Notes under the pieces: generated by a model | What the model was told of the DNA's origin: nothing | Database searches by the model: none | Seen by the model: only the letters and a program-made list of their open reading frames with translations | Origin: Rhodamnia argentea | Lineage: Eukaryota > Streptophyta > Magnoliopsida > Myrtales > Myrtaceae | NCBI RefSeq assembly: GCF_020921035.1 | Contig: NC_063151.1 | Location: 18,854,934-18,918,933, forward strand | Length of the DNA: 64,000 nt | Reading direction: 5' to 3' | In this document: positions 4,952 to 64,000 of the stretch, one piece after another | Numbering within the stretch: position 1 is the first letter of the stretch | Layout: the number at the start of each line of letters is the position of its first letter | Made by a program: the position numbers and the translations under genes

Positions 4952-7900
4952 TTATTCGTGGCGAGTTTCAGAATGAACTTTATTGTGAAGGCGGTAGATG
5001 AGACTAGACTTCGCCATCTGAGGTTCCCTTTCCAGAACAGCAATCACATCCTTGACAGAAATTGTACGAGCTACCTTCGGTTGTGATGCAATAGCTTGGT
5101 TCCTTCCTAATTTTCTATTGGCCCCTGTAAAGCACAAAATCTGGGTAAGAGGACTGAGTAGGACGAGGCACCACACATCAGAGATAGGGAGATTACAATA
5201 ACACCCAAACACAGTGGTTTTTTTGCATGGTTAGTTTGTTGAATCAAGTACTTGCTCTCTGTCCAGCATTAGATTTTACAATGAAGAGTTATTTTTGGCC
5301 ACTGTTTATGCTATCAAAACCAGAACTCCAACACAGCTAATTAGCAATGATTCCATGACATACCAGATGCAGCTTGTCCCCTTTTTCCTGCTTCTTGATT
5401 GTCTTTATTGTTTCTTCCAGAAATTGAAGATTTTCGGCTATCTTGACCGACCTGAGATGCCGCCTCCAATCCTCCCTCACGTTTTTGACGCGCTCGTTCA
5501 GCCATAAGCTGCCACTTGGACAACATGTCATCTCCTCCCACAGCAGCTCGGGCAGCAACATTTGCAGCAGTCGCCCTCATCTTGTCGTCTTCCTCTTTGT
5601 TTGCCTAAGTATAGATAAAACATAGCAAAATATCCTTACCAAAAAAAAAAAAAAACATAACAAAATATGATCGGGCTGGATCCATGAGGTGTGATGTGAG
5701 CAAGCTTAGCTAGTACAATCACTTGATTGATGAACATTGGAATTCAATCCTCATTTCAACCACTAAAACTAGGGATTTCAAGGGCAGGGAGGCCCCTGCC
5801 TAGCAACGTATATCGCATCCAAAAAGAGATCCAATATTACCTTCACGGATTTTCCACGGCCTTCGTCCTTTTCTTTATCACCATCAACTCCTTGACTGCC
5901 CTCAGGCTGCAATGATGTAGACAAATAAGCATTAAACAGAGAACCAGAAAGGGAGGTGAAGAAAAGAGGGAAAGAGATCGACTATTCAAACATATTTGTC
6001 TACATAGACATATTTGTTAGATCTGAGAACATGCCCATACTCCAGCATAAGTTTCCTAGTGGTAAAAGCCACGTCAGCTAGGTGAAATGGCAAAAACTTG
6101 CCTCACTTTGTTTCCTTAGCTTTTCTGCTTCAGCCTGTTTCTTATCCCATTCTTCCTTAGCTCTGTGGTTCAAAATCATAAGGTGCTGCTGGGCATCTGA
6201 AGTGACAATGGTCCGATGTCTGGGCCTCTCAACATCAACCCGCTATAAAAAATAACTTAATAAGGAGAGACTAATATACTTGAACCAAGTTAGTGGAAGG
6301 GGGAAAAACGCTCACCTGCTTTGAGACTCTAATTAAATTGCACAGTAGGCCACGCAACCTTTCCTCCACACTCTGGAAAATGAGTTGGTTAAGACACTAA
6401 ACAGGAAACATTAAAGAGCAGAGAAGCTACATCTCACCAACGAGAGACACCTCTCCACGTCATTGCTTATATTCTTCACACCACATTGGACCACTGGCAC
6501 AAGCATAGAGTTGAATATCTTTACCAAAGAGTATTGGGGCATAAAAGAAGAGAATCAAAAAATTCCATAGATGAAGAAGGAAGAGAGGAATAAACTGATC
6601 TCCGCCAATTTTTTCTGCAGGGGAGCCCGCTGCAATATCAGATTTTCTTCTTCCTCTAGGACAACTCTCCGGGATGCTTCTGAGACTCGACTGTCTTCCT
6701 TAGGCCCAGAAAACAGCTGTTCTTCTTCTTCCTTGTTCCGATCACATTTTCACAGATAAAAAACCAATTACCAGAAATTTAATAATAGTTAAAAGGACAA
6801 AATATACAGAATTGTCAGGTCAATTCCTACCCTGAGATTGACCCCACTAACAGCAGTGACATCAATGAGTTGTTCAATGCTTTGATCTGCAAAGGTCCCA
6901 GATACCTTTTGCTTCTTACTGTACAGATTCGGTAGACAACATTAAATTGACAAATGTTAATATTAAAAGTAAAATTTCATACTCAACTGATCAAGATAGG
7001 TATAATCAATCGAAGCCAGACCACCTTGAGGGAGGAGGCGAAGAACCAAGCGTTTCAAGAGGCTTCTTCTGGCCAACAGAAGTTTTTTTAGAAGGTGTCC
7101 TTGCATTATACCCAGCTGGTGCAGATGCTGTTCGGGAGCCTAGCTGATAGATTCAAGGCGAATAACGTCTTTCAAAAAGGGCTTACTTGCAGTCAAATCT
7201 TTGTCTGATATCATCAAGGAGTGAACTTTTGCACTTATTATCCCAAAAAGAGCTGCCAGTTTTGTTTCAAAACATAGAGCAAAAGGAACAAAAAAACAAT
7301 GCTTCAGAAGTAAATTTCTACAATATCACTACTCCTGTAGGGGGATAATGCAAATTGTGCAGTCAATTCCAATGTGTCTAAAACATGTACGCAGGATAAA
7401 TGAGAGCAGAAGTTTGTGCACTAAGCATCTCCTCTATATTCGCAGTTGTAGCTGCAACGTCGTGTCCAATAAATAATGTGATATTTATCAACCCTAGTGA
7501 CAATGTCACAAAAGAATTCCTTTCCTGAGTAGGGTCGTATTTAACTAGTAAATATGCTCTTGTAACATGTCATTCTTCCAAATTTTTTACCTCATTAACT
7601 TTTTATGCTTCCAGATAGAAGCCCAGTCCAGTATGAGGTCTGTTAGCTGCTGTTTTGCTGCCTAGTGATAAACAGTATTTTCAAACCTCTTCAATCAAGC
7701 AAATGAAGAGGAATGGCTATCAAGTAGTTTTACCACCTAAAGCATGGAGATAAACCTCCCAACAGCAAACATCTCCTAGCCATGGCATTTAATGTGATTA
7801 ATTGTTTAATCCAGGGGTTGCTATCCATATTTTCTATTCCCACATGCATATGAAGGAAATAAATGCATTCAAAGAAATTAAGTGGATTAAATTGCAAGAT

Positions 7901-10900
7901 AGAAGCATGGTTGAATTTAAAGGACCACCTGGATATTAGAATCCTGAGCTGGCGTTGTGGAAAGAGAACCCTGATGCGAAGTCCCAGTAATAGCAGGAGC
8001 CAAGAAACCCGTTCCTGGGGACTGCTGCTCAAGTGAATTGTCCCTTGAGGTTTCTGGTATGGAAACTCTTTGCTCTAGATGTCCAGCTGAAACTGAGGAC
8101 AGTCCGTTAAGGGAAGACAACTGTGGTTTCTGTTGATTGCTGGAATGATCAACAGGTTCATGTTTTACAAAGGCTGATGATGAGGCGGCACCCGAACTTT
8201 GGTCTTTAGCAGTAGACAACTTCCAAGGAACCGAATTTTGTTGGAGTGGTACATTACTTGCAAATGGTGGGAGAGCAGAAGATTGCCCTATCTTGTTATC
8301 ATTGTTAGGATGCTGCTGATTGAATTTTGGTGCAGTTACCAGGCTCATTGTCTGAGCTGCCCCTCCTGGCTGAATTGAACCCAAATTTTGATGAATTGGA
8401 ATCTGCTTCATTTGTAAATCATTAGGTTCTGTTTTGACAGAAGGAGCAGCACAGTTTACATTCTTCCCGCTGAATGGATGAACTCCGCCAGGACCTCCAT
8501 ACTTAGGAAATGTCTGCATGTTCTGAAAATGCTGCTGCTGCTGCACTAATCGAGACTCTGGTTTCTGCTCCACTTCTCCAGACTTTGGACCAGTTCTATT
8601 CATTGGGACTTGGCCTGGCGGAGATGAGTCATTGAACTTTGAAACGCTAGCAGGCTGCATTCTAGGTTGCGGCTGTAGAGCTGAAGTCGAACCTTGAATA
8701 TGCAACTGTGGGGGAGGCTGCAAGGGAGAGACTATGGAGCTTAGTAACAACATGGCATCCATAATCCCGTGTACAACATCAATCATGCTAAACACACCTG
8801 TGTTTGCATTTTCATAACTGCCAACTTCAGCATCTGATCTCCAACAATTCCTCTCATGATCCGCACAAACCCTTCCTTGGGAATATCATTTTTCTACAGC
8901 AGCGAGACCAAACAAGTGACTGACAAACCTCATTTCCCTCAAAAAGTAAGATTCAGAAAGAGCTTTACCAAAGACTCACCTTCAATTTGGCATAGAGGGT
9001 TTGTAGTTGCATGGCTCTGTCCTTATCAAGCTGGGGAAGAATCACTGGGAGCAACAATGCAAATGGCACTTGTTTAAGATGGTTTGGCCTATTTGGTGCT
9101 TGCTTGGGAACCTTTGCCTGTTGAATGCTCATTTGCTGTAACTTTAAGTACTGAGATTCACTGTCAAGGGTATGCACTCTACCTAGCTCACTCGTAGAGA
9201 CGGAATTCTTTTCTGACAATTGCATCCCAGGAGATTGCATGATCTGGATAGAATTTTGTTCTCCCTGCCCAAGTGGGTGACCATCTTGTACTTGTTTCTG
9301 CTTCAATTGCGGGTGATTGACTTTCTCCAAGGTGTTACTTTTTTGGGGATCAGCAAGAGATTCATGTTGCTGCAGTTGCATCTGTGCCAAAATCTGTTCT
9401 TGATGTTCTGAAATTTTTTGCTCTTGGTGAGTATGAGAATTTACATTTGCAGCCTGGTTAGTCGGTTTCCAACCTGGATATGATTGGCCGGGCATACTAA
9501 TATCTCCTTGTGAGACACCTGAATTATTATAGTTACCTCAAAAGTAAGACCCTTTGAAGCAAGAGATATAAGATCAGCAGCCAAAAATGAGAGAGAAAAG
9601 AAAGGAATGTCGAGGTGACCTAGATATTAGGAAGCAAGTTTCTTTATACTACTTCTAAGCTGCTCACCAGTATGCATATTGACCAAGATTCTACTTTTGT
9701 TTTGCATTCTTCCAAACATAACTTCAAAACAAGGAGCACATACCAAGCAAATAAAGGTGTTAAATCTCCCACGTATGTCAAGTAGCAAACCAGTATAAGG
9801 GACTTTTTTTGGCTAAGCACTGCATTTGCACAGCACTGGCTAAAAGTATTATCCAAAACTACACCACAAGCTTAGGAAGGACAAATAACTTTTTTCCTCT
9901 GTAACCATATTATACGTGTTAACAAATTCGCTTCTCATCCCTTTCAGACATTTAATGGTTCCATCCACTATTTGCTGTTTAACTTCTGTTGCTTTCCAAT
10001 TTTTGTGGTCTTGGGAGAAAGGAGGAGGTCAAAAGTCTTATTTTGTTCTTTTGTCATCCTTCTTTTAGATCAAAAGGAATCTACAAAATGTTTTGAATGC
10101 CCTTCCTGGGTCTCGGATTTCAGAAGCTGGAGTCGGCAGGGGACAACTTTTGCTTGCGGCATGACTTCTGCCTTTTATAAGTTGGCTTTTGATGCTGGAT
10201 GCAGATTGGATGAGAAGCAGAGAGGTAGGCACCCCCTGAACAATCTCTTAGTCACGATATCAAATACCTACCTACTGATCCTCCTGGTCACAGAAAATTT
10301 CTCCCACATAAATTCAGTCCCCGTTTATAAGAGGCTCGTGTTTATGGCTTCATCAAGGAAATCCAAATTCGCAAATAAGACAAAGAAACCAAAGAACGTC
10401 TCACCATCTCATCCTCACATGCTAGTAAATAATTATATCACATCAGCTCTAAAGTAAGTTCACAGATACTTGAACTAATGCATCCCCAACAAATTTGAAC
10501 TATTAATATAGGCCAAATTTAAATTGGGGATTTAAATATTTTATCCCCTTTTTTAATTTCTCAATCAAGAAAAATCACAGCTTGAGACAAACAAGGTTGG
10601 ATCCATCAGAATCTTCCCCAGCCTGATTTTCCTTCAATCTCATGGTCAGTAATTCATAATCTATGATTTCTCCAGTCATGCAAGATTTGAAGTCACCACT
10701 GATTTACCACTATTCTACAACACAAATGAAATTAACCAGAACTAGCCCATCAGACTGAAAATCACTTGCTTCTATCTTATCCGCACACCCAACATCTGAG
10801 AGGCCTGACGCTAGTCCCACATAAACTCAATAGTTGTGACCAGGGATCCAGTTACTCGATCAACAGGTCAACAGTAGTTCTCAGGAATCAACTTAGAGAC

Positions 10901-11568
10901 TGCGGGTTCAATGATGTCGCTCGACTTAACGTTCAAAGTTTAATCTAAAGCCCCAGCTAAGTCAAACAAGGCATATTAAGCCCAAACATTTAGCTATAAT
11001 GACATCAACATTTCTTAAACTAAGGTGACACAAAGCAGTGAACTTGAAAGACATGACACATCTTCATGCTATTCTGATCCAACAAAGGTGCTGTACTAGA
11101 CTTGTTAAATTCAAGGCTAGCTACTATCAATGTGTTGTAACAGGATAAAAAGTACCATGTATCATCTCTGCACTAACTTCATTACACAAAACCCCATAAG
11201 CTAGTCGTCATCACATAAATACGATGTAAAACATCATACTGATAACCTAACAGTTTGCACCAAAACTACCAGGAAAAATCCTTGATTCCTAGAAAGCAAT
11301 AACTTAATGCCAACAATACCTTTATCGGATGATGATGGTTGAGAAGTCGACGTATCACCTCCAATATCCCGATTAAGGGCAGCCTGGAAAGCCTCCACGT
11401 CAGCCCCCAAGTGCATGCTTTCGTCCTGTAGACATAAAAGTAACAAAATAAGAAATCCCCACCCAAAATCCATGGCGAGAGCAGAATTTTTCCATAAGAA
11501 TACGGTAAAGTAAACAAAACAACAAAGACCTCATCTTCTTCCAGGAGCTTCATTATCGAAGGATCCAT
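4952..11568 (-). CDS. TAF4: Transcription initiation factor TFIID subunit 4 (TAF4)
   Basis: Fourteen coding exons, read from the high end: 11568-11530, 11425-11320, 9518-8980, 8893-8798, 8717-7929, 7143-7025, 6918-6831, 6731-6596, 6493-6438, 6372-6316, 6242-6102, 5906-5841, 5604-5364 and 5124-4952. Phases agree at every join, giving 881 aa, close to plant TAF4. The start [13 protein letters not shown] is the conserved plant TAF4 N-terminus. Exons 3-4 carry the RST domain (about residues 195-255, ...[20 protein letters not shown]...). The middle is Gln/Ser/Pro-rich, as in activator-binding TAF4 regions. The C-terminal TAF4 domain (about 570-881) includes the histone-fold-like segment and the motif [18 protein letters not shown]4 pairs with TAF12 inside nuclear TFIID and supports Pol II initiation. 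Intron 1 has a weak donor (GTCTTT), and intron 11 appears to use a GC donor. A telo-box lies at 11888-11896 in the leader or promoter region. The upstream region has been interrupted by two transposons. Confidence 0.93.
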
Positions 11569-11887
11569 AGCGTCCAGCACTCCTTCAGTGAGTTCGTTTG
11601 CCCAATTTCAATGACCACCGAACCGAAACACCCTGTCTTTTGCAGAGAAAACTTCTCAATCGAACAAGTAGCGGGTCGCAGACGGTCATAAGAACTAATT
11701 CTTTTTATGCTTGAGGTCGAAGTCGACTATTAGACAGTCGCGAGCATCTCCCCTTGTTATCAACTAAAATTCAGCAGCCAAAGAGCAAACCAAGAAAGCT
11801 GTCGACACAAATCAGTGTAATGACGATGTGTGCCTCGGAACGTTCCCGCGAACAAACTATTCGATTGCCCGAGGAAGAAAACCAGTA

Positions 11888-11896
11888 AAACCCTAA
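11888..11896. promoter_or_regulatory. Telo-box (AAACCCTAA) upstream of TAF4
   Basis: AAACCCTAA lies about 320 bases upstream of the TAF4 start codon, in the 5' leader or its intron. Telo-boxes are common near the starts of plant housekeeping genes. The function here is inferred. Confidence 0.35.
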
Positions 11897-12150
11897 CCTT
11901 AAGCTTCTTAATAGAGACTGCGAAGCTCCATTCCTCGCGTGATCCTCGATCGCAAGCAACAGCAGCCTCCCAGCTCCGTCTATTCTTGATTTGATGGCAT
12001 TGCCACTGGAGCAAATGCCGCCAACGCTTCAGAAAGCCCCTAGCTTCCGAGAGAAACAGAGACACAGAGTGTGCAACAAGAAGAGCTCGGCCATGAAAGG
12101 AAAGTGTCGAAGCTTTTAACGAGAGCAAGAGAGCGACCGAGACGGAGACG

Positions 12151-12175
12151 GAGAGAGAGAGAGAGAGAGAGAGGG
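12151..12175. repeat. (GA)n microsatellite upstream of TAF4
   Basis: An uninterrupted GA/CT run in a purine-rich stretch just before the 12.2-kb insertion. On the TAF4 strand it reads as a CT-rich tract, common in plant core promoters and leaders. Confidence 0.7.
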
Positions 12176-12203
12176 AGGGAAGGAGAAAGGGGGCTTAAAA
12201 TAG

Positions 12204-14518
12204 TGCAATTTTCCAAAATATGGTTAAAAAAAAATTACAGATTTACGTGATTTTAAAAAAAAAAAATTACCTGCCATAAAGGCGCACACGGCTTGTGGGC
12301 TTCCATGTCCCTTAATTTTTTTTTTTACTTTCTTTTTATTTTTATAGCCGCATATTTTATATTTTTTTATTTATAATATCGTTTATTTATAACATTTATA
12401 TTTATACAACTTTATAAATTTAACATTTTTTTCTTTTCAAACCTTCTTTTTATAACATAATTATTAATAATTAATTTAAAATTTATTAAGACATATAATT
12501 AATAAATAATTTAATATTTATGTAATTAATTTATTTGGTATGTGAATAATTAATAGATATAGATAAAATTGCTAAAAAAATAAAAAGCAAAATGCATAAA
12601 ATAAATTGGTAAGATACATAAAGATGAAATATCCAGATAAAAAGAAAGTGCTATAATAGACAACAATTCATGAACTAAAAAAAAAAAAATCCGGCAAATA
12701 AACAGTGTAATAATATATAACAATCCATAACCCAAAAGTATTATTGATGATGTTGTCCTCCTACATGGCTTCCTGTTCCACAACCGAATTGTCTCCGTCA
12801 TTCGTCAGGTACCGAGGACGAGAATGAGATTCCGGATGAGTAGGAAGTGTAGATGACGATGACATATCCTGTAATGAGAAGCGTGGCTATGATGTGGATA
12901 CATCATAAAAATAGGAAAATAGTCCCTAAGGCGGTACATATCCTATTGTAGAAGGACCTGGGTAAAAAGGAGAGAAATCCAATGACATATCTTGTCCATA
13001 GGAACCCCGTGACTCATCAAACGCTCCTCGAATAGAGAAAATATTTTGAGGGGGACTCTGGGACTGTCGATTGTCATGGAAGCCAAAAGGGGATCCCTCA
13101 TAAAATTGGTTGGCAAATTGGCCAAACCCTAAAGTGAAATCTGTCGTGCTACTGGAAACCGTGAAATTTGATTGTGTATGATAGGCCATGGGATAGGGGA
13201 CGGCATTATCAACTGGGTGAAGTCGAGTGGTCCTTCGAGTCTACTGAACCATCTCATGTGGGTCATCCTCATGCGGCCCAATGGACGACTTGGATACGTA
13301 ATGAGATGTTGCGGATACAATAGGCAAATTTGTGCTAGACGCAAACCGTATTAGAAAGAAAGGAATGTCCCGTGCATCATGAATATCATTGGGTCGTGAT
13401 GCATGGGAATGACCCACCCGAGACGGTTTAGTTAATCCGGAAGACCACTCGAGCTCATCCAGCCTATAATGTTGTCATCTACCCCGTGGCCTATCATACA
13501 CAATCAAATTTTACAGTCCCCAATAGCATGACAAATTTCACTCCAAGCTTTGGCTAGTTTGTTAGCCAATTTTATGAGGGATCCCCTGTTGGCTTCCTTG
13601 ACAATCGACAGTCCCGGACTTCAACTCAAAATAGTTTCTCTACTCGAGGAGCGTCTGATGAGTCGTAGAGTTTTTATGGACAAGATATGTCATTGGATTT
13701 CTCTTCTTTTTACCCAAGTCCTTTTAAAGTAGGATATATACCTTCTCGGGGACTATTTTTCCATTTTGATGATGTATCCACATCACACCCACGCTTCCCA
13801 TCACAAGACATGTCATCGTGATCTACACTTCCTATTCATCAAGAACCTCGTCTTTGTCCTCGGTATAACACTAGACCTACTGAATAACGGAGACAACCGG
13901 ATTGAGGAATAGAAGGCCATGTAAGAGGACGACATCATCATTAGTGATGCTTTTGAGTTGTTGATTGTTATCGATTATTACACTATTTATTTGCTAAATT
14001 TTTTTTTAGTTCATGGATTGTTATCTATTATTGCATTTTCTTTTAATCTAGTTATTTCATCTTTATGTATCTTACCAATTTATTTTATGCATTTTTATTT
14101 TTATTTTTTTAGCAATTTTATCTATATCTATTAATTTTTCATATACTAAAGAAATTAATTACATGAATATTAAATTATTTATTAATTATATGTCTTAATA
14201 AATTTAAATTAATTATTAATAATTACGTTATAAAAAGAAGGTTTAAAAAGAAAAAAATGTTATATTTATAAAGTTGTATAAATATAAACGTTAGAAATAA
14301 ACGTTATTATAAATATAGAAAAATATATAAAATGTGCAGCTACAAAAATAAAAAGAAAGTAAAAAAAATTTAAAGGGGTGTGTAGGCGCATAATGGTGTG
14401 GAGGCGCATAGGGCATGTGCACCTCTTTGGGAGGCGGACATGCCCTAAATAGGTAATTTTTTTTCAAAATCACCTAAATCGGTAATTTTTTTTTGAACAT
14501 ATTTTAGAAAATTGCCCC
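12204..14518. mobile_element. 2.3-kb long-inverted-repeat (foldback) element, MULE-like, with 9-bp target duplication
   Basis: The element is flanked by exact 9-bp direct repeats TTAAAATAG at 12195-12203 and 14519-14527. Its ends are inverted (TGCAATTTTCCAAAATATG against GGGGCAATTTTCTAAAATATG on the reverse strand). The symmetry runs through nearly the whole element: the left arm (about 12204-13286) and right arm (about 13381-14518) are reverse complements at roughly 75-85% by eye, with a loop of about 95 bases. The inner arms carry matching, decayed protein-like sequence facing outward from the loop (for example SNFTVSSSTTDFTLGFG on the minus strand near 13150 and a stop-containing partner near 13510 on the plus strand). 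I do not recognise that protein. A 9-bp duplication points to the Mutator superfamily. The element sits in the shared upstream region of TAF4 and the Mpv17-like gene. Confidence 0.85.
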
Positions 14519-14608
14519 TTAAAATAGGCCTGAATGCTTAAGATTGGCCCGGTGCTATTTGGATTCGGTTTGAGTTTGGTTCTTTCGCTAAACCCCGCAT
14601 AAAGTTTA

Positions 14609-15567
14609 GGAAAAATTTTAAATAAGGGCTCCAAGTGCCCCGATTTTTTCAAATAAGGGTTTAAAGTAAATTTTGTTTTAAATAGGGGTTTAAAGTGCGT
14701 TCATTATTTCAAATAAAGGCCTTAAGTGGATATTGTTTTAAATAAAGGTCTGAAGTGACCATATTAATATAAAAAAAGGGCCTCTCACTAATTATTTATG
14801 GGCACTTTCGTCATTTATCCTTTTTTTATTATTTTTCTACCTTTTTTTTTTCTGCCTCTTTTGTTTTATAAAAATTTAAAAAAAACTGAAAAAAGGAACA
14901 ATAGGCGGGTGGTCGCCCTCCCGCCTATGGAAGCCACCCTAACGCCGGTGGGGCGGCATTGGTGGCCATCAAGTCGGCGACCTCACCGACTAGCGGCGAG
15001 GGCCAACGGGGCCTCGCACATGTCGGAGGAAGGGTCGCGGCCCTCGGTCCGACTAGCATCAAGATCGCCGACTCTCACCTGGGTCAAGTCAAGGGCAACG
15101 ACCCTCGCCCAAGTCCCGTTGAGGGTCGTGGCACTCCCAAAGATGCGGGAGGGGGTCGCAGCCCTCTCCCACTTCGGCGAGGGCCAGCAGGCCCTCGTCG
15201 TTAGTCGGCGTGGTCGCCGGCCCCCGATGAGGAGCCGGGACCTCGACGGCCACCAATGGTGGGGCAGCTTCCATAGTCAAGAGGCTGCCCTTCTACATGT
15301 ATTCCACAGTTTTTTTTCATTTTTAGTTTTTTTATTTTTTATATAATTTAAATAAAAATTATGTCAAAATCATATTTTGACGAAAATACCCTTAATCGGC
15401 CAGTCATCATGCCTTTATTTGAAATAATAATGATCACTTTGGGTCTTTATTTTTTTTTAAAAGGACACTTTATACACTTTTATTTGAAATAAAATTTATT
15501 TTAGATTTTTATATGAGAAAATCGGGGCCAAATAAAGGCACCTGATATACTTATTTGAAATTTTTAC
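14609..15567. mobile_element. GC-core inverted-repeat element with exact 9-bp target duplication (MULE-like, non-autonomous)
   Basis: Flanked by exact 9-bp repeats TAAAGTTTA at 14600-14608 and 15568-15576. The ends are inverted (GGAAAAATTTTAAATAAGGG against GTAAAAATTTCAAATAAG on the reverse strand). The arms carry degenerate units such as 'tttcaaataaaggtctgaagtg', repeated about every 35-40 bases. The core (about 14900-15290) is GC-rich, with 'gagggtcg/ccctcgc' palindromes. Long open frames in the core are a base-composition effect, not genes. It lies 69 bases upstream of the Mpv17-like start codon and 81 bases from the neighbouring foldback element. Confidence 0.85.
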
Positions 15568-15636
15568 TAAAGTTTATGCCATAAACACGCGCCTGCCTAC
15601 CAGAAAGGCCCCCCCCAAAACTCAAGGGGAAAGAAA

Positions 15637-18283
15637 ATGGCGACGGGCTCCGTGTTGAAGCAGCTCCGCAGGCGTTCGACGAAGCTCTTGGTCTCGCCCG
15701 CTGATCTTGCCGCCTTCTTCGAAGCTCCGTCGCTCGCGAGCTCACAGCGGCACAGGGCCTACACTAGCTCGCGGAACGGAACTCGCAGCGGTGGAGGCGC
15801 CAAAAGCTCGATCCCTTCCTCCGAGCCCTCTCTCGCTCGCTCCGCTCCTCATTGTCGGCCGAGAAAGAATGGATTCCTCGCCTGGTACCTGGGCATGCTC
15901 GAGGCTCGGCCTCTCGTCACCAAGTGCGTCACGTCCTCGCTCATTTACGCCGCCTCTGATCTGACTTCCCAGGTAAGTGCTGAAACAATGCCGGTTGAAA
16001 CTTTATGCGTGTTTTCTGCACGAAATACCCTAGTTTTGATGGTCCGGAGGGCTTGAATTTTCGGAGCGTTGGAGTTGAACTTGCTTCTGATTCTAGCTAG
16101 TGTCTGGTAAGAGATTGCTGTGAGGTGAATGATTCATTTGGCGGGGCTTGGGAAAATATCCGCTCAAAATGTTAGCATAAATTTTGCCAATTTTATTACG
16201 GGAAAAACGAATGATTGGGAAAATATTTTCCGAAAACATCGCTCGCATTCGTTAAGAACAAAAGTTTATTATAGCCAATGAAAATATTTTTTGTTCCTTC
16301 GGTATTGTAACGAACTGTTAATTTTCTGTGCTGCCCAACTTCTGTATTCTGATTTCTTCGGCTAATATGAATTTGCTGACAGCTGTTTATCGATTCTTTT
16401 AGATGGTTACATTGCCGCCTTCCGGTTCTTTGGACCTGATAAGAACGCTGCGTATGACCGCGTATGGATTGGTTATATTGGGTCCTAGCCAGCACATGTG
16501 GTTCAACTCTGCGTCGAGAGTCCTACCACAGCGAGATGTGGTTACTACTCTGAAGAAAATATTCATGGGGCAGGCAATATATGGACCTTGCATCACCACG
16601 GTCTTCTTCTCATACAATGCGGGTCTACAAGGTGATGAGATGCTATAGCGATCTTTTTTCTTCTCACAAGCCCTTTGTCTATCGCATACCACAACTGTAA
16701 TGGTAATTCTTCCTTTATACCGTTCCCGATGAGTGATTGTATTGCAAACTATTGACAAGTTTTATTCACTTCTAAGCCAAGAAATTTAACTAAATCCATC
16801 ACAACAAAAAACTAATAGATATCTGTGAAGGTAAGAGATAGTTCTTTGGTGTTCTCTTTTCTGAGGTAAAGCCAACTAATTGGTTGGATAGTTGACTTGC
16901 CGCAAAGCCTATTCCTCATTCTTTTCACATTTAATATGTCTCTTCTGGATGATTGAGGGACTTATTTCTGGTTCATTTTTTAAATTTTAGCTTTTCAAGT
17001 TGTTAATTGCATGCAATATCCTATCTTAACACACCCGAGTCAATTTCTCTGTTGTGGCAAAGTATTCATCTATTCCTTATAGGAAAAGTGGGTTAAACCG
17101 CTCATGTACAATAGATTATAATGTTGATGCTAGCTCTTTGTCAAATGCACAAGTCTTAATAGGCTGGTGGATTGTGATGGTCTTAATGTACTTCGGACAT
17201 TCTGCTCTATTTGACTGATGGGCATGGTCAAGAATCATTAACTTCTGCCCTGGAGTTCTTTGCCATGATATTGTAAGACTACTAATGAATAATAGCTCTT
17301 TGAGAAGATCCCAATAGTGGTTGGTATTGATGATCATCACTTATCACTAAGTATCCTAGTATTGCATAATCTATTGAAGAAAAAAGATTTATGGGACTGA
17401 TTTGCATATGAGTGTTTTGTCAAGGGTGTTACCTTAGCTAAATTTCTTGATTTGATGGGGATGTCATATGGTTCCGGTTATGCTGCTGAGAGGCTATGGC
17501 TTATGTTATCTTTAGTTTCTTCCTATTTCACAATGTCAATTAAAAGTTTGAGTGACCCTTTCCTCTGCAGCTATTGGTTAATTAGCATTAGTTTGAACCT
17601 CTCTTTCTGTGTGCTTGCACACGTCCCTGCTTGTACGCTCATGCCTGTGTTTAAATTCTGCATTCATTGTACGATTTTGCCCTGATGATTCAGCTTGTAG
17701 TTCTCAGTCGTGGTACTAATTGACATATATATATCTTCATTGGATGTATCAAGTGACGTCAAATTTCCTGTGAGATAATGTTCCCAAGCAGGAAATGCAT
17801 TTTTATTAGTGAACTTAATTTCTGACTGATGCAGGTGAAACTTTTGGTGATATTGTTGGCAGATTGAGGAGAGATCTGCTGCCGACCATAAGAAACGGCG
17901 TTTTATTTTGGCCTATTTGCGATTTTTTCACATTCAAGTTCATCCCTGTGCATTTACAGGTATTTTTGGTTGCTTTAAGCATGCCAGAAGTTTACATTGT
18001 TGACATACGAAGAAAATAAACTTCTTCAACTAATGTCACTCGTAGGGTACTCATTAAATTTTAGCTGGACCTGATTGGATTGTTGGGAGAAGTTACTAAT
18101 AATAAATAACATATTAATTCTTTTCACTCTTGTGTTCTGATGATGGCAATGGCCGAGGGGAGAGTGAGCTATTAACACTTCTTGTCGTATTGTTGGCAGC
18201 CATTGGCGAACAGTTCTTGTTCATATGTGTGGACCATTTATTTAACATACATGGCGAGCTTGAAAAAAGCGAGTTCTGACTGA
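15637..18283 (+). CDS. Mpv17/PMP22-family membrane protein
   Basis: Four exons, 15637-15972, 16403-16631, 17835-17959 and 18200-18283, join in phase to 257 aa. All introns are GT-AG. The N-terminus (MATGSVLKQLRRRSTKLLVS) is rich in Arg and Ser without acidic residues, which suggests an organelle transit sequence. The Mpv17 domain begins near residue 83 (WYLGMLEARPLVTKCVTSSL) and shows the family hallmarks: a D.. segment after helix 1, R.TAYG....GP..H.WF in helix 2, and the C-terminal signature FWP.CDFFTFKFIPVHLQPL followed by S..W..YL.YMAS. These are small four-helix proteins of mitochondrial inner, peroxisomal or plastid membranes (yeast Sym1, animal MPV17 and PXMP2). Substrates are not settled. 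The compartment here cannot be fixed from sequence. The gene is head-to-head with TAF4. Intron 1 contains a fragment of a dispersed repeat near 16150-16300. Confidence 0.92.
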
Positions 18284-61250: not shown

Positions 61251-61671
61251 ATATATTTATGGATAATGATATAAATAGTCCATGAACTTTAACTCAATAT
61301 ACAATATAGTCCCTGAACTTTTAATTTGATCAATATAGTCCATGAACTTTAAATCAATGTACAATATGATCCTCGAACTTTTAATTTGACAAATATGGTC
61401 CCTAAATTATTGGAATATGTCCAACTTAATCTATGAACTATAGAAAAATGTTCAATGTATTCATTCAATTGATTCAAGTTCGGGGATTAAGTTTAACATT
61501 TTCCAAAAATTCGAGAACTATATTGATCAAATTAAAAATTCGTGAATCACATTGTACATTGGATTAAAGTTCATGGACCATATTGATCAAATTAAAAGTT
61601 CGAGAACTATATTGCACATTGGGTCAAAGTTTAGAGACCGCTTATGCTTTTTTTTTTGCCAAGAAATATAT
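61251..61671. repeat. Degenerate tandem array, about 60 bp units
   Basis: Repeats of the type 'tccatgaactttaatcaatatacaatatag' and 'tcgaacttttaatttgatcaatat', first in one orientation and then (from about 61490) in reverse. This gives a loose inverted-repeat layout. It is absent from copy A of the duplicated unit. Confidence 0.6.
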
Positions 61672-62550: not shown

Positions 62551-62986
62551 AACTCTCTTTCTCTCCATAGCCATAGTAGACACATGCGTTCCGCGCGCAT
62601 TCCAAAGGCTTCTTAGTCCAAAAATATAAAGAAAATTTGAAATAACGGTCTAAAGTGAGATTACTTTGTCAAAAGAAGGTCTGAAGTAAACATTTTTGCA
62701 AATAATGACGTGGAGTAACCAATTTATTCTGAAATAAAGGTCTAAACTCGCCAATCGGCCAAATTTTCGTCCATCGGTGGGCGCTTCATTTTTCCAGCGG
62801 TGGGAGCAAGACATCTCTGTCCAAAATAAAACCAAGATAAAGATTCAAAAACATTCAGCTTGACCTCTATTCTTCACTCCATCTTCCCCTCGGAACCGCA
62901 ATACATTTCCACTTCAAGCTTCAATCGTCAAGTCGTACTTGAAAAAGAGAGAAGATATTAATTTCAAGGTTCTAATTTTTGGGGGT
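62551..62986. other. Intergenic sequence with repeat-arm units
   Basis: No gene. Around 62640-62760 there are units such as 'aaataaaggtctaaactcg', like the arms of the element at 14609. Confidence 0.4.
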
Positions 62987-63119: not shown

Positions 63120-64000
63120 GAGTCGGAGAGAGGGAGAGAGCTTGAAGAGTGCACAAAGGCTTGGCATTGAGCTCGACCACGCCAAATTTGAAGTCGAGCT
63201 TCGTCACGACGTCGAGCGTCGGCCGATCATCAGTGGGGGGTTAACAGCAGTCACCGGCGAAGTCTGAACGACAGTGGCACGCACCTCCAACCAAATGCAA
63301 TCTCTCTCTCTTCTCTTGTTTGATTTTTCTTTTCTTTTTTTGTTTTTTTAAAGTTTTTCTTTTGGATTAATATCACGAAAAATCTTAAACTGATATATTT
63401 ATCATAAATTTACCCCAAACTAATCTTTGATCACAAAAAACCCCAAACTCATACACTTGTAGCAAATTTACTCAAATTAATTTTGTGACCTCCAAAAATC
63501 CCAAATTGGTATACTCGTGACAAATTTGCCATATGTTAGTTTCCGTTAAGTTGGATCGATACCACGAATAACTCCAAACCGGTACACATATAACAAACGG
63601 AAGGTAAAAACCTCAAAACGATACACTTGTCAACTATCACGTATTATCTAACTCAACAATCTGACGGTAAAATTTAACTTAAACCGACCTATGATAAATT
63701 TGTCTCAAGTTTATAAGTTCGGAATTTTTTGTGATATTCATAACTTCTATTGGACTAAAGAACCTTATGCCGATGGCCAAAAAAAACAAGTGCTCGGCGG
63801 CAGGCAAGCTCAACCTTATTTGAGACTCATTTGGTCGCATCATGCCTTGATGAGACTCATCTCTCAATCCTCATTTGAAATAATACCCATTCTGACCCAT
63901 CTTTTGAGAGAGGAGCCCCACCTCAAACACTTACTTGAAATTTTCCCAAAAAAAGAAAAATATGATGCTCGGTTTAAATGCACCCGAATCATGTGCAATT
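63120..64000. repeat. Intergenic end of window with degenerate tandem repeats
   Basis: From about 63370 to 63620, units of about 60 bases such as 'accccaaactaatctttgatcacaaaaaa' and 'cccaaattggtatactcgtgacaaattt' recur with much divergence. No gene is recognised to the end of the window. Confidence 0.45.

Follow-up and report, generated by a model that had tools for sequence, protein, structure and literature searches.

Two Mutator-type insertions in the compact spacer of a divergent TAF4/Mpv17 gene pair of Rhodamnia argentea

Introduction

How did a TAF4 gene and an Mpv17/PMP22 gene that stand head to head in Rhodamnia argentea come to lie 4068 bp apart, start codon to start codon, and what became of the promoter DNA between them? 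A first-pass annotation had proposed that a compact bidirectional promoter, shared by the two genes, was split here by two nearby transposon insertions. We therefore examine the insertions, the families to which they belong, and the sequence into which they went. The window is the whole stretch of DNA analyzed (64,000 nucleotides; C2:18854934-18918933), and positions are given in its coordinates. Searches of the plant's own genome covered 346.7 Mb in 74 contigs; the contigs met in these searches are C1 to C11, of 23.9 to 37.3 Mb each, sizes that together with the genes present suggest a plant of 11 large chromosomes.

Results

The two genes are divergent, as had been proposed. The minus strand carries the TAF4 start exon, an RST domain, and four TAF4 exon pieces matching PF05236 (E values from 3.6e-08 to 9.2e-07, with a single piece above the curated cut-off), and the plus strand carries an Mpv17 gene matching PF04117 (E = 3.7e-18). 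The earlier remark that both genes look intact holds over the whole frame for Mpv17, whose four exons join into one open frame of 257 codons with a TGA directly after it. For TAF4, it holds at the start exon and the domain pieces, from which intactness was judged. A second TAF4-Mpv17 pair in the genome was ruled out, the eight TAF4 domain matches being confined to C2 and C4; the 10 Mpv17 matches fall on C2, C11, and C4 (10.16 and 15.18 Mb). In Arabidopsis, TAF4 (AT5G43130) and an Mpv17 gene (AT5G43140) have consecutive locus numbers and may be neighbors as well. A literature search found no paper naming AT5G43140.

Table 1. Coordinates of the genes, elements, and remaining original DNA at the TAF4/Mpv17 locus.
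Feature	Position	Strand	Remarks
TAF4 gene (coding part, to the extent identified)	4952..11568	-	ATG at 11568; RST domain; PF05236 pieces
TAF4 leader/proximal promoter	11569..12194	-	Upstream part CT-rich; partly conserved in C4 paralog (blastn)
Left E1 target-site duplication	12195..12203	-	CTATTTTAA on TAF4 strand; aligned with paralog TATA box CTATATAAA
E1	12204..14518	.	2315 bp near-complete inverted repeat, MULE type
E1 arm A	12204..13285	+	Homologous to PMD-side end of larger element
E1 loop	13286..13400	.	115 bp; without counterpart in copies compared
E1 arm B	13401..14518	-	Same element end as arm A, inverted
Right E1 target-site duplication	14519..14527	-	Other copy of CTATTTTAA, oriented toward E1
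Original spacer DNA separating E1 from E2	14528..14599	.	Putative upstream promoter of TAF4; resembles paralog promoter (modest statistics)
Left E2 target-site duplication	14600..14608	.	Within GCATAAAGTTTATGC palindrome of joined site
E2	14609..15567	.	959 bp non-autonomous MULE-type element, subterminal tandem repeats
Right E2 target-site duplication	15568..15576	.	
Original DNA ahead of Mpv17 start codon	15577..15636	+	
Mpv17/PMP22 gene	15637..18283	+	Exons 15637-15972, 16403-16631, 17835-17959, 18200-18280, then TGA

Two elements, E1 and E2, lie between the genes (Table 1), and the 9-bp duplications attributed to them prove to be exact: copies of TTAAAATAG flank E1 and copies of TAAAGTTTA flank E2, each duplication adjoining an inverted terminal repeat. 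Each 9-mer has one further same-strand occurrence in the whole window. The E1 duplication is also readable as 10 bp (CTTAAAATAG), as the preceding base is C on both sides.

A long ancestral spacer in which these 9-mers happen to be repeated is extremely improbable. What such an account has on its side is the base rate of chance pairs. With the E1 spacing, an exact pair of 9-mers, each no more than 5 bases to either side of its end, was found at 84 of 100,000 random window places and 66 of 50,000 AT-rich places; with the E2 spacing, at 121 of 100,000 and 280 of 50,000, respectively. These rates, about 0.1% at random places and up to 0.6% at AT-rich ones, ignore the added demand that the pairs abut inverted repeats of recurring families, and they rule out chance 9-mers as the source of the duplications. 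The recurrence of the E1 and E2 families elsewhere in the genome also stands against a long ancestral spacer, as does, less strongly, a TAF4 paralog on C4 (below).

E1 and E2 thus represent two separate insertions of Mutator type (MULE-like), unrelated to each other, in the DNA that separates TAF4 from Mpv17, and a compact ancestral spacer is well supported. Without the elements, 72 + 9 + 60 = 141 bases extend from the E1 target to the Mpv17 ATG, where about 140 had been estimated, and the ATG-to-ATG distance falls to 776 bp, in line with the proposed stretching by about 3.3 kb. The head-to-head genes would thus have stood less than 1 kb apart, the distance by which bidirectional promoters are recognized. 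Of the compact bidirectional promoter in the first-pass annotation, the two separate insertions in a compact head-to-head spacer are borne out; that this spacer was a promoter shared by TAF4 and Mpv17 is plausible, and the rewired regulation that the annotation also envisaged is conjectural. A literature search on bidirectional promoters with transposons returned nothing on point. The joined E2 target (14597-14608 plus 15577-15579) reads GCATAAAGTTTATGC, a 15-base palindrome save for its center base.

E2 is, judging by its relatives, a member of a large non-autonomous MULE-type family that makes 9-bp duplications. The own-genome search with E2, in which the best 40 of 1317 candidates were scored, gave 107 matches. 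Over the matched part, the 29 other copies that were fetched share 67-80% identity with E2, and no close sister copy is among them. Family ends read about GGGAAAATTTCAAATAAGGG, and terminal inverted repeats are common to the family. Of 30 loci fetched for the duplication test, five fell short of the 5' end and were left out, and 25, the window included, were tested. Nine of these 25 copies (8/24 without the window copy) have an exact 9-bp duplication at the family ends, compared with 6/500 shifted controls. Inexact duplications with one, two, or three mismatches were seen in six, seven, and three copies, respectively; 44/500 controls had one mismatch. Elsewhere in the window, the sequence at 62632-62740 resembles the E2 5' end with its subterminal repeats (similarity about 70%) and is perhaps a decayed relative. 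Tandem arrays at 61275-61401 (unit about 60 bp) and 63406-63527 (about 58 bp) look like subterminal repeats of such elements.

E1 differs in architecture: it aligns with itself as an inverted repeat at 81.25% identity over 1120 columns. The own-genome search with E1 listed 146 matches (from the best 40 scored of 486 candidates), and no other copy of the hairpin junction is among them. Eight fetched long-arm copies run past the end of the E1 arm with each other's sequence and not with the E1 loop, one of them (L044) continuing with the shared sequence for about 210 bp only. Because no junction copy is among the matches listed, and because divergence between the arms dates the duplication and not the insertion, the E1 insertion could not be dated.

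One of these eight copies, a relative at C2:4070713-4077334, indicates where the arms came from. It is 6622 bp long, has closely similar ends, and is flanked by an exact AGTTAAAAG duplication. It contains pieces of a plant mobile domain (PMD; PF10536) and, with a match that exceeds the cut-off (E = 2.8e-05), a SWIM zinc finger; no MULE transposase domain was matched in its scanned pieces. Its PMD-side end aligns with arm A (229-1082 and 6-56) and with arm B (8-1118), whereas its other end matches the E1 arms over 56 and 75 columns only. Since the arms match the PMD-side end at length, E1 is, on this comparison, in essence a single end of a PMD-carrying element, present twice and joined tail to tail. 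The plant mobile domain of the C2 relative lies beyond the E1 arms, and E1 is without it. Over its outermost 56 bp, arm A is 91.1% identical to the other end of the relative versus 84.9% to the PMD side; the very tip of E1 may come from the other element end or be conserved.

Both ends were seen in six other copies of the E1 family, and one of these, the C2 relative, has an exact duplication. A copy at C4:23.4 Mb agrees at 6/9 positions, the duplications of L044, L047, and L049 are imperfect, and L036 lacks one; a scan of a seventh copy, L057, found no duplication. The outer flanks of L036 (C10:23395473 region) form an inverted, not a direct, repeat. Inverted forms recur in the E1 family: L057 and a further copy on C9 also have an inverted structure, in which arms 85-86% identical align over about 500 columns, and E1 has the longest arms of the three.

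The two arms of E1 may share a source. By raw identity, arm A is closer to L033 (88.0%) than to arm B (84.1%), which taken alone would suggest two sources. In a tree of 10 rows (the two arms and those 8/16 other aligned rows that cover the inner part), however, arms A and B group together, with support of 93/91 and 94% of bootstraps, just below the mark for a firm branch. A single source is thus somewhat favored by the tree. Two of the 16 other rows, L055 and L057, gave the same stretch. E1 positions 109-512 (12312-12715) and their arm B counterpart form an outer part in which the arms are 90.5% identical, compared with 80.9% in the inner part; better outer conservation is also seen when the arms are compared with the eight long copies.

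What did the E1 target look like before the insertion? An empty allele elsewhere in the assembly, such as a second haplotype, was ruled out, as a 63-bp probe taken from the original spacer matches a single place in the genome. The only TAF4 domain elsewhere in the genome is at C4:7284347-7286056, with its start at L068:4030. The 8.4 kb read at this locus contain no match to E1 or E2, and no Mpv17 lies within 4 kb upstream of the C4 copy. A TAF4 gene can thus persist without being paired with Mpv17. By blastn, the TAF4 leader matches L068 at 76.8% over 125, 73.6% over 280, and 81.8% over 55 columns, and the 72-bp (E up to 1e-3) and 60-bp original stretches have no match there. The window leader (minus strand) contains five upstream ATG frames and that of the paralog seven, some alike in sequence (e.g., MLATV and MLSTV).

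A gapped alignment crosses the E1 site, with AAGCATT...AGGCCTATATAAAC in the paralog and AAGCATT...AGGCCTATTTTAAG in the joined window flanks. At the E1 target, the paralog reads GGCCTATATAAAC and the window GGCCTATTTTAAG, with 3/10 positions differing. The paralog TATA box, CTATATAAA, aligns with the E1 target, CTATTTTAA, which is the poorer TATA of the two, and in the paralog the box is collinear with the conserved leader. Anchored at the box, an anchor picked after the alignment was seen, the alignment scores 16, reached by 4/1000 shuffles and 1/1000 random window places; the own end of E1 scores 0. In the unanchored test, 27/1000 shuffles score as high with the duplication and 74/1000 without it, and the score is equaled at 14/270 (with) and 34/270 (without) other places of the paralog locus. 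When 1.5 kb upstream of the paralog was searched, the best match lay elsewhere and was not significant (28/200 shuffles).

The C4 gene is likely a paralogous empty site, its promoter resembling the sequence beyond E1 and not E1 itself, and E1 probably hit the TATA position of TAF4; the comparison is good only when anchored, hence these grades. The search for empty sites that the first-pass annotation had recommended has thus been answered on the TAF4 side, by a paralog in place of a relative and with modest statistics. The insertions might also be real and their target merely AT-rich promoter DNA, with the TATA match a coincidence of alignment and expression unchanged. The marginal unanchored scores, the mismatches between the two boxes, and the AT-richness of both the E1 and E2 targets would all fit such a coincidence; the anchored scores and the collinearity of leader and box make it rather unlikely.

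Discussion

We consider it probable that a compact TAF4/Mpv17 pair took two independent Mutator-type insertions in core-promoter DNA, E1 landing at the position of the TAF4 TATA box. The 9-10 bp duplication made there would have copied the box. TAF4 probably still starts from the copy adjoining its leader, with modest or no change in output, and its former upstream promoter, together with the second box copy, would now lie 2.3 kb off and point into E1. TAF4 may in this way keep its core promoter yet lose close contact with its upstream elements, and the second TAF4 copy may have cushioned the E1 hit. The E2 insertion fell 69 bp ahead of the Mpv17 start codon. In maize, Mu elements make 9-bp duplications and prefer transcription starts (PMC2774946). 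Given this preference, two MULE-type hits in one short promoter need no special cause.

The case is ordinary in kind and unusually legible in detail. To the first-pass annotation, we add the identity of E1 and E2, the inverted-repeat nature of E1, and, via the paralog, its probable TATA-position target. The locus is a natural experiment, in which one TAF4 copy has a promoter that was split, probably at the TATA position, and another copy in the same genome does not. It raises the question of whether the copying of a box by target duplication lets a gene survive a hit to its core promoter. It also raises the question of whether inverted-repeat transposons beside active promoters become silencing loci.

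The second question bears on a distinctly unlikely reading of E1, as a hairpin locus resembling maize Mu killer. What was once the upstream promoter of TAF4 would, with a box of its own, drive a transcript through both arms, and small RNAs from the resulting double-stranded RNA would silence PMD-carrying transposons. Both arms derive from the PMD-side end, and the right-hand box faces E1. Folded as RNA, E1 has a predicted energy of -1319.6 kcal/mol, far below the -481 to -506 kcal/mol of three base shuffles; 943/1002 predicted pairs join the two arms, and 10 uninterrupted helices have at least 21 pairs. Mu killer itself is an inverted duplication with two ends from the same MuDR end, the same layout (PMC3440606). 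Against a hairpin locus, the E1 arms are only 84.1% identical, E1 could simply be methylated and silent, and other inverted copies exist elsewhere in the genome. Furthermore, the description of Mu killer ties its silencing to antisense transcripts begun inside the locus and places read-through sense transcripts from the flanking gene in non-silencing plants (PMC3440606). Layout alone therefore does not predict silencing, and E1 would act like Mu killer only if transcribed. It is highly doubtful, and in any event conjectural, that E1, by inserting at the TATA position, acquired the TAF4 housekeeping promoter, so that the duplicated box and host upstream elements made it a permanent supplier of hairpin RNA directed at PMD-carrying transposons and TAF4 kept the other copy. 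Such promoter capture, if true, would provide a second, natural example of a locus like Mu killer.

Several known systems resemble parts of this locus. MULE elements carrying plant mobile domain genes are a known kind, and relatives of E1 resemble them in carrying PF10536, the C2 relative also having a SWIM zinc finger. E1 itself, in contrast, keeps one end only, twice, without the domain. The maize allele Adh1-3F1124 reportedly has a Mu3 element in the TATA region of Adh1, with the box copied by target duplication, and is said to be a laboratory allele with a tested change in expression. E1 would share with it a Mutator element at a TATA box that was copied by the duplication; its insert, however, is a hairpin, known here from sequence. 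Maize Mu insertions resemble E1 and E2 in their 9-bp duplications and their place at gene 5' ends (PMC2774946). E1 and E2 are nevertheless of other families, two in one head-to-head spacer, and no close sister copies of either were seen in the genome among the copies compared. Mu killer is a parallel in layout: both of its ends come from one parent end, and it consists of two partial copies, tail to tail, beside a host gene (PMC3440606). Compared with the C2 relative, both ends and both arms of E1 likewise come from the same parent end. E1 differs in deriving from a PMD-carrying family and not from MuDR, in the 84.1% identity of its arms, in having its own target duplication, and in sitting within a promoter, so that the likeness between the two is one of layout.
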